Assembly: GCA_016281335.1 (NCBI GenBank)
Contig: JAEEIK010000111.1
Span: forward strand, 1-64,000
DNA from: Lachnospiraceae bacterium
Lineage (GTDB): Bacteria; Bacillota; Clostridia; Lachnospirales; Lachnospiraceae
Length of the DNA stretch: 64,000 nt
Direction: 5' to 3'
Below, in pieces: positions 20,403 through 27,506 of this stretch (position 1 is its first letter; every line of letters begins with the position of its first letter). Under the pieces are notes generated by a model. That model searched no databases. It was not told the DNA's origin and saw only the letters and a program-made list of their open reading frames with translations. The position numbers and the translations under genes were made by a program.

Positions 20403-22343
20403 TTATACGCTTCTGTGCCTGCGGTGACGGACCTTATAATTATACATTTTTTCGTCAGCAAGACTTAAGGCATTATCAAGGGTTATCTCTCTGAAATCAT
20501 CGAATACCAGAATGCCTATGCTGGCGGATACGTTATAAGGCTTATTCAGCGTTCTTGACTTGGCTTCCATCGCATCGGTGAATTCCGTTGCACGTTCGGC
20601 TTCGTCGCTTCTGCTGTATTCGCCGATGCCGATCAGGAAGAATTCGTCACCGCCGCTGCGCACACAGATCTCATTTCTGCGCGTAACGCTGTTCAGTACC
20701 TGGCAGAGCATCTTCAGACCGAAGTCACCTTCGCTGTGACCGAAGGTATCGTTGATATATTTGAGACCGTCCATGTCGATGACACCGACGAAGAGAGCAT
20801 TTTTTTCAGTGGATGCAGCGGCAGCCATCAGCCGGAACTGCTCGTACATGCCTCTTCTGTTATAAGCCCGCGTCATTTCGTCTCTGACGGACATGGTCTG
20901 GAGGCGTTCTTTGGAACGGATCATCTCGAGACAGTTATTGATATATCGCAGCCAGGTACGGTAGACGATATTGAATAAAGACTCGTTAGAAAGTTCTCTG
21001 TGCAGCACCGCATAGCCTAAAAGAGCACCGTCATAATGAACAGGTGAGAAGTAGAATAAGCCGGGTTCCGGGCGGTCTTCATCAAGTTTCGGATGCATGC
21101 AGGAAATCCAGAAGGAGCGATCCGGATCGACTCCGCTGAACTTATCATCGTCAATGGTTGAAGCTGCAACATATGTGCGCATGGATTCGGGATAACCTTC
21201 ATAAGTATCTTCATCTATGTTCAGCCAGTCTTCTCTTAAACAGAGATAGAAATTGCGATAAGGCTTCAGCTGGTCTGCGTATTCATAAATCTTTTTAAGA
21301 CATTCCTCGGGAGAACTTGAAGAAGTAAAATCTTCCAGAGCGTAGCTTTCCATAAGCTGACCGATGCCTATGTGTTCGGCATTATCTTCATCGGCATGAT
21401 TGTATGAACTGATATAAAGCGAACCACGGAAGCGTCTCATGGAATGTATGGGATCGGTCTGACAGCCGCAGCTGGCACCGGGATGAAACTGGAGTTTGGT
21501 ATCACGGTCGTGGGGGAGGAGCTCTGCGCCGGGTTCTATAATACTTCTGATATGATCGACAGCATCCGCACCCATGGTCACATCACCGGGATCATAGGAA
21601 CTGAGGGTTGTCAGATTGACAGCCGCTTCGTCGGAAGCATCGAAGCCTATGACAAGTATATCTTCGGGAACCTGTATGCCGTTCTTGATCAGACGGTCCA
21701 TAAGACCGATAGCCATGCAGTCGCTGGCACAGATCACCGCATCGGGACGGGGGATCTCATTATTGACGATCTTCCTGGCAAGAGCATCGCCGCTGAAATA
21801 CCAGAAATCGCCGTAAACTATATGTTCGGGAAGTACATCAAGGCCGTGTTTTTTGATCTCATCAAGAAATACTTCAAGGCGTTCTTCGGAAACATTAACT
21901 CCTTTATGGCCGGTCAGAAGGCAGATTCTCTTTCTTCCGTGATCTTCTATGGTATGTCGTACCATTTCACGCAGTACGCCTTCATTGTCATTCTTGATAA
22001 GTTCCGTTCCTTCGGTAGGCAATTCAAGAGAACACTTGGGAAGATCCGGGTACTGCTCAAGACGCTTGACCAGCATCTTCAGACTGCGATCATCCGGATC
22101 GCCTGTCAGAGTGGTATGGTCAAGGATGACACCGTCAAGCTCAGCAAGATTGGCAAGCCTGAAAATGTTTGCTTCCCCTTTTACATAGTTTTCGTGATGA
22201 AAAGAAAGATGAATGCTTGAAGCAAAAACACAGAGGTCATAATCATATTTCTTACACTGTTCCATCGCGCCCTCGGTAATCCTTCTTACGTGTACTATCT
22301 CAGGATAGCCGAGGAATAATCCGATCCTTTTTCTTCTTTTCAT
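20403..22343 (-). CDS. Diguanylate cyclase with LacI-type sugar-binding sensor domain
   Basis: 646 residues. Residues 5-290 match the periplasmic-binding/LacI sensor fold (IGLFLGYPEIVHVRRI, DHGRKRICLLTGHKG, PDAVICASDCMAIGLMDRL, VPEDILVIGFDASDEA) but there is no helix-turn-helix in front, and no signal peptide or membrane segment. A middle region (300-480) resembles a sensor or linker domain. The C-terminus is a GGDEF domain with intact active site GGDEF (564-568); the position of the RxxD inhibitory site reads RRNE, so product inhibition may be lost. The protein should make c-di-GMP in the cytoplasm in response to a small sugar-like ligand. RBS AGGGG; own promoter upstream. Confidence 0.85.
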   Translation of the reverse strand: MKRRKRIGLFLGYPEIVHVRRITEGAMEQCKKYDYDLCVFASSIHLSFHHENYVKGEANIFRLANLAELDGVILDHTTLTGDPDDRSLKMLVKRLEQYPDLPKCSLELPTEGTELIKNDNEGVLREMVRHTIEDHGRKRICLLTGHKGVNVSEERLEVFLDEIKKHGLDVLPEHIVYGDFWYFSGDALARKIVNNEIPRPDAVICASDCMAIGLMDRLIKNGIQVPEDILVIGFDASDEAAVNLTTLSSYDPGDVTMGADAVDHIRSIIEPGAELLPHDRDTKLQFHPGASCGCQTDPIHSMRRFRGSLYISSYNHADEDNAEHIGIGQLMESYALEDFTSSSSPEECLKKIYEYADQLKPYRNFYLCLREDWLNIDEDTYEGYPESMRTYVAASTIDDDKFSGVDPDRSFWISCMHPKLDEDRPEPGLFYFSPVHYDGALLGYAVLHRELSNESLFNIVYRTWLRYINNCLEMIRSKERLQTMSVRDEMTRAYNRRGMYEQFRLMAAAASTEKNALFVGVIDMDGLKYINDTFGHSEGDFGLKMLCQVLNSVTRRNEICVRSGGDEFFLIGIGEYSRSDEAERATEFTDAMEAKSRTLNKPYNVSASIGILVFDDFREITLDNALSLADEKMYNYKVRHRRHRSV

Positions 22344-26605: not shown

Positions 26606-26607
26606 GA

Positions 26608-26635
26608 AAAAAGCAGCCGATCGGCTGCTTTTTTA
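26608..26635 (+). terminator. Terminator of tRNA-Leu(AAG)
   Basis: AAGCAGCC-GATC-GGCTGCTT followed by six T residues, 3 bp after the tRNA. A-rich on the other side too, so it may also end the leftward GGDEF transcript. Confidence 0.9.
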
Positions 26636-26654: not shown

Positions 26655-27377
26655 TTACACATCGTATTTTTTTAAGAGCATGTCCAGGGCTTCGCGGAGA
26701 AGTATGGCTTCGCCTATGCCTTCGGCTTTGGACAGCATAGAGAGACGCTGCAGCTGGTCCTGGGTGTAATGGCTGGTCTTGGGAACCATCTTTTCTTCTT
26801 TGGCCATGGCGACGCGGTTGCCGCCGCTTCTCTTCGCGCGGAAGAGGGCACCGTCAGCCTTACGTACCAGTTCGGCATAGCGGGAAGCATCGGTAAAGGC
26901 CGTTGCCATGCCTATGGTGATGGTCTGGCGCACTCCGTCAGGCGTCTTTACGTCAAAATCATTCTTCAGTTCATTGAGCAGCAGGAAGATATCTTCGCGC
27001 TCGGTTTCTCCCTTAAAGATCAGGGCAAACTCATCTCCTCCGATCCTGTATACTCCCGTATCTTTCGAGACTTTTTTTCTTATATATTTTCCTGTCTCTA
27101 TCAGGATACGGTCACCTTCGTCGCTGCCGAAATCCGAATTGATATGATCGAAATTGTCGGAATCGATAAGGGCAATGACGATGGTCTCGCCGCTGTCCTC
27201 CGGGGTTTCGGCCAGGATGTCGCTTAAGTCTGCTTCAAACTGATCGCCGGTGGGGAATTTAAGCGCATCATTGACGGCTGTTTTTTTCTTCTCATTATTC
27301 CTGCGGTTCAGTTCCTTGTGATCGTCCACTGTGACGGGATGAAAGGTTTCTTCGTTAACAGCTTTCTTTCTTGCCAT
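26655..27377 (-). CDS. Diguanylate cyclase fused to a ribbon-helix-helix-like domain
   Basis: 240 residues, soluble. A short basic N-terminus is followed by a GGDEF domain (about 36-192) with ALIDSDNFDHINSDFG, active site GGDEF (113-117) and the late YAELVRKADGALFRAKRSGGNR element. The last 43 residues (198-240) read as a ribbon-helix-helix unit: a short strand KTSHYT, helix QDQLQRLSMLSKAEG, then helix AILLREALDMLLKKY, the ReAl-x-x-x-L pattern of Arc/CopG-type DNA-binding domains. So a c-di-GMP synthase appears joined to a DNA-binding module. The start ATG at 27377 follows AAAGGAGG. Four AT-rich direct repeats lie in its own promoter region. The RHH call is from pattern only. Confidence 0.78.
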   Translation of the reverse strand: MARKKAVNEETFHPVTVDDHKELNRRNNEKKKTAVNDALKFPTGDQFEADLSDILAETPEDSGETIVIALIDSDNFDHINSDFGSDEGDRILIETGKYIRKKVSKDTGVYRIGGDEFALIFKGETEREDIFLLLNELKNDFDVKTPDGVRQTITIGMATAFTDASRYAELVRKADGALFRAKRSGGNRVAMAKEEKMVPKTSHYTQDQLQRLSMLSKAEGIGEAILLREALDMLLKKYDV

Positions 27378-27393
27378 AGCAGCACCTCCTTTG

Positions 27394-27445
27394 ATAATAT
27401 TTTAGAAATAATATTTTAAAAATAATATTTCAGATGAATATTTTA
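27394..27445 (-). promoter_or_regulatory. Four AATATTTTA direct repeats upstream of the GGDEF-RHH gene
   Basis: AATATTTTA at 27396-27404, 27410-27418, 27424-27432 (one change, AATATTTCA) and 27437-27445, so at intervals of 14, 14 and 13 bp. The first two copies share ATAATATTTTA and the third begins ATAATATTT. They end about 17 bp before the start codon and cover the likely promoter. Tandem direct repeats are typical RHH repressor operators. Confidence 0.6.
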
Positions 27446-27506
27446 TAACACATATAATGATATGTGTCAATAGCAACCCGGGGAGAAGGAGAATAACCAA
27501 AAGCTG

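Follow-up and report, generated by a model that had tools for sequence, protein, structure and literature searches.

A predicted diguanylate cyclase fused to a ribbon-helix-helix domain, with a conserved candidate operator at its own promoter

In a 64,000-nucleotide stretch of contig JAEEIK010000111.1 from a Lachnospiraceae bacterium (assembly GCA_016281335.1; hereafter the window), we analyzed a gene whose product joins a GGDEF (diguanylate cyclase) domain to a C-terminal ribbon-helix-helix (RHH) domain. Among relatives of this GGDEF-RHH protein the fusion is retained, the catalytic residues are invariant, and a conserved operator lies upstream at a fixed position with respect to the promoter and hardly occurs at any other place in the genomes searched. 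The protein is thus predicted to be an active diguanylate cyclase, producing cyclic di-GMP (c-di-GMP), that probably also acts as the dedicated repressor of its own gene. That it is the operator's binder, that binding represses, and that the enzyme is active are what we infer from these sequence patterns.

The fusion and its relatives

Only two Pfam families, GGDEF and RHH_3, were matched above their cut-offs in the 240-residue protein. The intact GGDEF site that the initial annotation, made from the sequence alone, had reported at residues 113-117 is present within the GGDEF match (82.1 bits). The annotation had also read the C-terminal segment as RHH, naming a coiled coil or another fold as the outcome that would speak against it, and here the search returned RHH_3 at 27.8 bits against a cut-off of 21.6 (residues 204-238). 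Within the family alignment, which holds 47 of 64 proteins and includes that of the window, all 47 members match GGDEF as well as RHH_3 at an expectation value (E) of 0.01; the RHH assignment of the tail rests on this Pfam match, because structure models and structure matches for the segment are weak (see below). The RHH domain is the best conserved region of the protein: its mean pairwise identity is 0.86, whereas the GGDEF domain reaches 0.62 and the N-terminus 0.37 (means computed without L060; loci are denoted L, genomes G, and contigs C).

Residues D72, D74, F76, N80, D89, G114, D115, E116, F117, R180, and K182, whose roles, metal and guanine contact among them, are assigned after PleD, are identical in all 64 proteins, and position 113 is Gly in 58, Ser in 5, and Ala in 1. 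Both the Arg at 104 and the Asp at 107 of an RxxD inhibitory site (I-site) are absent from 64 of 64; this site is not universal among GGDEF diguanylate cyclases. Such strict catalytic conservation holds for the core family only, since the motif varies in distant forms, reading SGDQF in L092, AADEF in L094, and GGDEF in L093, while L090 combines SGDEF with a Thr in place of the guanine-contact Asn. Distant proteins L090, L093, and L094 also have Tyr in the RHH strand where the core family has an invariant H203.

A search for other GGDEF-RHH proteins, as the initial annotation had suggested, was productive: one scan of an 84,980-genome collection yielded 63 loci at 55-77% identity. The match extends to query residue 239 or 240 in all 63 loci; much of the N-terminal extension is missing from L057-L070 except L063, and L060 ends at a contig edge. 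The loci are labeled Lachnospiraceae (37), Clostridia (15), Clostridiales (6), Butyrivibrio (2), Acetatifactor (1), Oscillospiraceae (1), and Treponema (1), the last of which (L064) could not be confirmed. Most of the loci are in metagenome-assembled genomes of Lachnospiraceae or other Clostridia, and many of the labels name the rumen or another herbivore gut as the sample; L052 is from a cultured strain, Butyrivibrio sp. MC2013. Occurrence is patchy: counting the window's own genome each time, 2 of the 35 genomes searched from the genus have the gene, as do 8 of 397 from the family. The 64 proteins form 55 clusters at 90% identity and 37 at 80%. One genome carries two copies, L057 and L058, about 6 kb apart on the same contig and each with its own operator sites; in the window's own genome the query gave 36 matches at E ≤10, one of them to itself.

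In a sample of 398 genomes from the phylum, nine matched a profile of the tail at E 0.001. They comprise the window, three clear GGDEF-RHH proteins (L092, L093, and L094), and five weak matches, of which L095, L098, L099, and L101, with readable frames, are short RHH open reading frames (ORFs) without GGDEF. The fourth distant form, L090, belongs to the same family as the window, and its RHH match falls under the Pfam cut-off. Broader sampling for distant forms added little: the order to which G805 belongs had them in 3 of 8 genomes (one of them a fragment), the order of G799 only in G799 itself among 38 genomes, and in the genus of G175 the one genome sampled was G175 itself.

The candidate operator and its position

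The relatives' upstream regions share a 23-bp palindrome, GATATTATTTCnGAAATAATATC, which is present in 61 of 62 at no more than five mismatches and in 54 at no more than three, compared with a best score of six mismatches among 1,240 first-order Markov shuffles. These counts use 62 of 64 regions, omitting L060 (contig edge) and L032 (48 nt upstream); L001 is the window itself, and L009 is a copy of L026. The upstream element, whose absence from close orthologues the initial annotation had named as contrary evidence, is therefore conserved. A half-site matrix trained on 60 upstream regions, with the window and L050 excluded, detected 4.7 units per region as opposed to 0.45 in shuffles. Pairs of units in the relatives were convergent at offset 12 (86 times) or in the same direction at offset 14 (39 and 16 times), whereas, of the eight pair types most frequent in shuffles, none exceeded 0.25 per set except the pair at offset 2, which the unit itself produces. 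From these pair counts we derive an 11-bp pseudo-palindromic unit (AAATATTATTT-like) with 14-bp spacing. Two or more sites (≤4 mismatches) occur in 43 of the 62 relatives, some of them upstream of or over the -35 element.

The four direct repeats of the initial annotation are real, in that a 19-nt repeat family starts with AATATTTTA at 27396, 27410, and 27437, with a copy at 27424 that differs once. Scored with the matrix trained on the relatives, however, the array comprises three 11-bp units at 14-bp steps (27421-27431, 27407-27417, and 27393-27403), and the copy at 27437 overlaps the -10 TATAAA. Since the window has three units in tandem, its direct repeats represent a variant arrangement, on the same 14-bp spacing, of an operator whose commonest form in the relatives is an inverted pair. 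The description of these repeats as iteron-like did not hold. Iterons are tandem repeats at a replicon origin with an initiator gene, whereas this element sits on the promoter of the GGDEF-RHH gene in 61 of 62 regions, the five neighbors scanned are of other kinds (see below), and there is no plasmid match at E 1e-20.

The window's predicted promoter places a -35 TTGACA at 27465-27470 and a -10 TATAAA at 27442-27447, with transcription predicted to start at about 27434, so that all three operator units lie downstream of the predicted start; no upstream site was found in the window at ≤4 mismatches. A stricter promoter scan omits this promoter because it demands T at the sixth -10 base. Promoter conservation was assessed in 59 of the 62 regions, leaving aside L046, L058, and L064 (no 17-bp spacer or a weak promoter), and an exact TTGACA occurs in 56 of the 62 relatives' promoters. 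Of the 62 regions, 54 have a downstream site (≤3 mismatches), and in every one of these 54 it is centered at +12 to +17; the standard deviation of its distance is 1.6 bp to the predicted start compared with 24.4 bp to the ATG, leaders being 47-145 nt long. This fixed distance to the start rather than to the ATG points to an element that acts on initiation and not on translation. Extra sites in the relatives cluster near -60, -48, -34, and -21. By its location the operator appears to act at the level of transcription, since a protein bound there would stand in the way of RNA polymerase, and repressed genes typically combine a strong promoter with an operator that overlaps it.

The site is also nearly confined to this promoter. 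In the window's own 3.23-Mb genome the only sites at ≤1 mismatch are the window's two overlapping ones, which indicates that the repeats are more than chance; eight further sites occur at two or three mismatches, compared with five for a reversed-pattern control. Our whole-genome search, which covered 32 of the 63 loci, found 46 sites at ≤1 mismatch (control, 1), 42 of which fall within 260 nt upstream of the GGDEF-RHH gene; G056 and G060 have no site at this threshold. Thirty-three congeners without a detected copy of the gene (E 1e-25) have three sites versus two for the control. No site at ≤2 mismatches was listed beyond the gene's promoter in 527 kb of locus DNA, apart from copies of the window site and L075, a locus selected for its operator match. 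Pattern searches of the window's genome, the 32 gene-bearing genomes, and the 33 congeners found no regulon, and with 42 of 46 sites at the gene's own promoter there is no sign of one. Together with the fixed promoter distance, these counts argue for the proposal in the initial annotation that the protein probably binds its own promoter.

Three further features of the upstream regions were noted. Between the two elements of the window's promoter lies a palindrome, ACACATATcattATATGTGT, which is conserved in part among the relatives (TTGACATAT...ATATGTGT); because it overlaps the -35 element and the TG before the -10, it is not claimed as a site. By eye, the operator upstream of L042 and L063 is lengthened to a palindrome of about 40 bp that overlaps the -10. 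Upstream of L090, L094, L093, and L104 there is no AATATTATTT operator, but other AT-rich repeats stand close to the gene: L090 has ACATATATATGT twice, L094 has CATATATGATACACATATATG, and L093 and L104 have TATATA-rich stretches. In these distant GGDEF-RHH genes such repeats are perhaps a second operator type.

Proposed mechanism and alternative explanations

In the mechanism that we propose, the RHH tails would dimerize and the dimers would bind adjacent AT-rich 11-bp units, at 14-bp spacing, covering roughly +5 to +28 at a sigma-A promoter close to consensus. Bound protein would hinder initiation or promoter escape, and the amount of cyclase would thereby be kept at a set point. Going a step further, feedback on the cyclase, whose I-site arginine is missing, may act via its own transcription, and guanosine triphosphate (GTP) or c-di-GMP on the GGDEF domains may change DNA affinity. 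Taken furthest, the protein would be a "trigger cyclase" in which the nucleotide state of the GGDEF dimer gates RHH binding to a single operator, forming a one-gene c-di-GMP homeostat in which self-repression replaces the lost allosteric I-site and whose gene and operator travel between gut Clostridia as a portable unit; we offer this extended version tentatively and, taken whole, lean somewhat against it.

Several observations weigh against autorepression by this protein. In the full-length AlphaFold2 model, confidence is good over the GGDEF domain but poor over the tail (predicted local distance difference test score, pLDDT, of 44-61 in blocks from residue 191 onward), where two helices, 206-218 and 222-238, appear in a low-confidence region; modeled alone, the tail reaches a pLDDT of 71 and again shows two helices, and the strand does not form in these monomer models. 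Foldseek returned 45 matches to the tail, none significant (best E 2.1), of which 12 are coronavirus proteases and about half, judged by name, are RHH proteins, including five of the top seven (CopASO, VapB26, the PutA RHH, CdbA, and CopG). The tail profile retrieved two RHH chains from the PDB at non-significant E values of 0.25 and 0.91. With respect to the operator, the 23-mer consensus was derived from the same sequences used to test it, and the clustering of the proteins means that the upstream regions are not all independent, although neither circularity nor kinship is likely to explain the gap between operator scores and shuffles. L050 fails the 23-mer test, though array-type units are present; a downstream site at ≤3 mismatches is absent from 8 of the 62 regions (L042, L048, L050, L059, L063, L064, L070, and L071), with a site at -1 in L042 and L063 and at -18 in L048; and the promoters were chosen by consensus score, their transcription starts being predictions. 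Four of the 46 sites at ≤1 mismatch lie elsewhere, two in G059 (C98 and C153) and one each in G066 (C76) and G039 (C97), and are possibly second targets or chance occurrences. Finally, some distant GGDEF-RHH proteins have altered catalytic residues, and the distant proteins lack the core operator: at ≤3 mismatches the operator pattern and its reversed control occurred 17 versus 24 times in G175 and 179 versus 160 times in G799, and three other genomes of distant relatives had none.

The altered motifs bear on whether the main task of the GGDEF domain is to sense GTP or c-di-GMP and thereby to control the RHH domain, with catalysis secondary and the same autorepression. L092, L094, and L090 retain the fusion despite their changed motifs and, in L090, the Thr for Asn (the RHH match of L090 being below cut-off), as a nucleotide-sensing repressor might. 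The checked catalytic residues, however, are identical in 64 of 64 core proteins, which a pure sensor would not need, and a second target gene is not evident in the 32 genomes, so that we consider a sensor of this kind unlikely; because it overlaps with repression by an active cyclase, the probabilities of the two need not sum to one. Positive autoregulation, as reported for PdeL, would fit the extra site near -48 or -60, positions usable by activators, that a number of relatives have. The constant site, however, lies past the predicted start, the promoter as it stands is close to consensus, and the window lacks an upstream site at ≤4 mismatches, making activation improbable.

Since binding of the palindrome by the GGDEF-RHH protein is something that we infer, the site could instead belong to another regulator, the RHH tail only dimerizing the cyclase or binding DNA loosely; RHH domains form dimers, and GGDEF domains must dimerize for catalysis. 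Against this stand the near invariance of the RHH domain, the presence of the site beside the gene in 61 of 62 regions, its near absence from the rest of the 32 genomes and from congeners lacking the gene, and the want of a conserved neighbor as candidate regulator, the largest neighbor family occurring in 6 of 59 sequences. This explanation therefore seems very improbable to us. Most downstream sites are transcribed inverted repeats, which would suit an element that acts in messenger RNA as a hairpin of the 5' untranslated region controlling translation or decay. Yet the position of the site is tied to the promoter and not to the start codon, many copies at about -60, -48, and -34 are untranscribed from this promoter, and in the window the units follow one another in tandem and do not make up a single clean inverted repeat; we give such a hairpin next to no credence. 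Autorepression by the cyclase itself remains the reading that we favor.

Genomic context and comparison with known systems

The features of the window that concern the GGDEF-RHH gene are collected in Table 1.

Table 1. Coordinates of the GGDEF-RHH gene and associated features in the window.
Feature	Position	Strand	Basis or remark
GGDEF-RHH protein gene, 240 aa, ATG start, apparently monocistronic	26655..27377	-	ORF list
GGDEF (diguanylate cyclase) domain, residues 46-188	26814..27242	-	Pfam PF00990, 82.1 bits (cut-off 23.8), 4.8e-23
GGDEF motif, residues 113-117	27027-27041	-	
C-terminal RHH domain, residues 200-238	26664..26780	-	Pfam RHH_3 match and low-confidence model helices
Ribosome-binding site AAGGAGG	27385..27391	-	Sequence
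Predicted promoter TTGACA-17-TATAAA, TG one base before -10	27442..27470	-	Conserved in relatives
Proposed operator, three pseudo-palindromic units forming two overlapping 21-bp sites (27394-27414, 27408-27428)	27393..27431	-	
Terminator-like hairpin AAAAAAGCAGCCGATCGGCTGCTTTTTT	26607..26634	.	Between gene and convergent tRNA-Leu; listed on +

The terminator-like hairpin may serve both strands, because its stem is symmetric. The five neighbors scanned in the window encode a flavodoxin, an immunoglobulin-like-domain protein, a sulfatase-family protein, RNase Y, and another GGDEF protein; the last (20403-22343, minus strand) has LacI-type periplasmic-binding-protein-like domains. No conserved neighbor genes were evident when the flanks of 59 of the 64 sequences were clustered (L021, L037, L046, L051, and L056 omitted; many loci have short flanks). 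Adjacency to a transfer RNA (tRNA) gene was considered as a mark of an integration site and rejected: tRNA-Leu lies just downstream in the window, yet among the 63 loci just 4 have a tRNA gene within 600 bp. Given how scattered the gene is, how little of its surroundings is shared, and that the operator is common to the relatives, gene and operator may move as one unit. One copy of the gene, L111, which has the upstream sequence of L059, lies on a contig from a viral collection; next to L059 lie ORFs with matches to PHROGs of unknown function, together with a protein with TIR plus leucine-rich repeats.

Small RHH repressors of the CopG/Arc/omega type bind spaced half-sites, often at their own promoter. 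They differ from the GGDEF-RHH protein in having no enzyme domain, and several are plasmid proteins, whereas the present gene lacks a plasmid match at the threshold given above. CdbA of Myxococcus xanthus is a small RHH protein with many chromosomal sites and no known GGDEF domain. Binding of c-di-GMP by the present RHH domain, as described for CdbA (PMC7156744), may be entertained as an idea.

Two self-regulating enzymes offer closer parallels. According to PMC5293562, PutA (trifunctional proline utilization A) represses its own transcription through an RHH domain fused to the enzyme, and the GGDEF-RHH protein likewise joins RHH to an enzyme, with autorepression predicted. The RHH domain of PutA is N-terminal and the protein oxidizes proline and represses the put regulon, whereas here the RHH domain is C-terminal on a GGDEF domain, a one-gene operator is proposed, and a proline dehydrogenase domain is absent (only GGDEF and RHH_3 exceed the Pfam cut-off). 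PdeL of E. coli, a trigger phosphodiesterase, is described in PMC5052742 as an enzyme of c-di-GMP turnover fused to a DNA-binding domain that binds an imperfect palindrome at its own promoter, a layout that the GGDEF-RHH protein resembles. PdeL, however, combines EAL with a LuxR-type helix-turn-helix, both absent from the present protein by the same Pfam scan, and it degrades c-di-GMP and activates itself, whereas the GGDEF-RHH protein is a predicted maker of c-di-GMP with an RHH domain and repressor-type sites.

Neither a GGDEF-RHH protein nor a self-regulating enzyme that makes c-di-GMP was recognized in our searches of the openly licensed literature, although the architecture may stand uncommented in domain-architecture databases. 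Self-repressing enzymes and a self-regulating c-di-GMP-degrading enzyme, PdeL, are known; here a predicted active cyclase appears to have one dedicated operator in its genome, which raises the question of whether making or binding c-di-GMP alters the cyclase's grip on its own promoter, a question that needs one protein and one DNA fragment. The layout of a trigger enzyme, an enzyme joined to a predicted DNA-binding domain with a conserved, near-exclusive site at its own promoter, is present, and on our best reading the GGDEF-RHH protein would be an architectural counterpart of PutA and PdeL.
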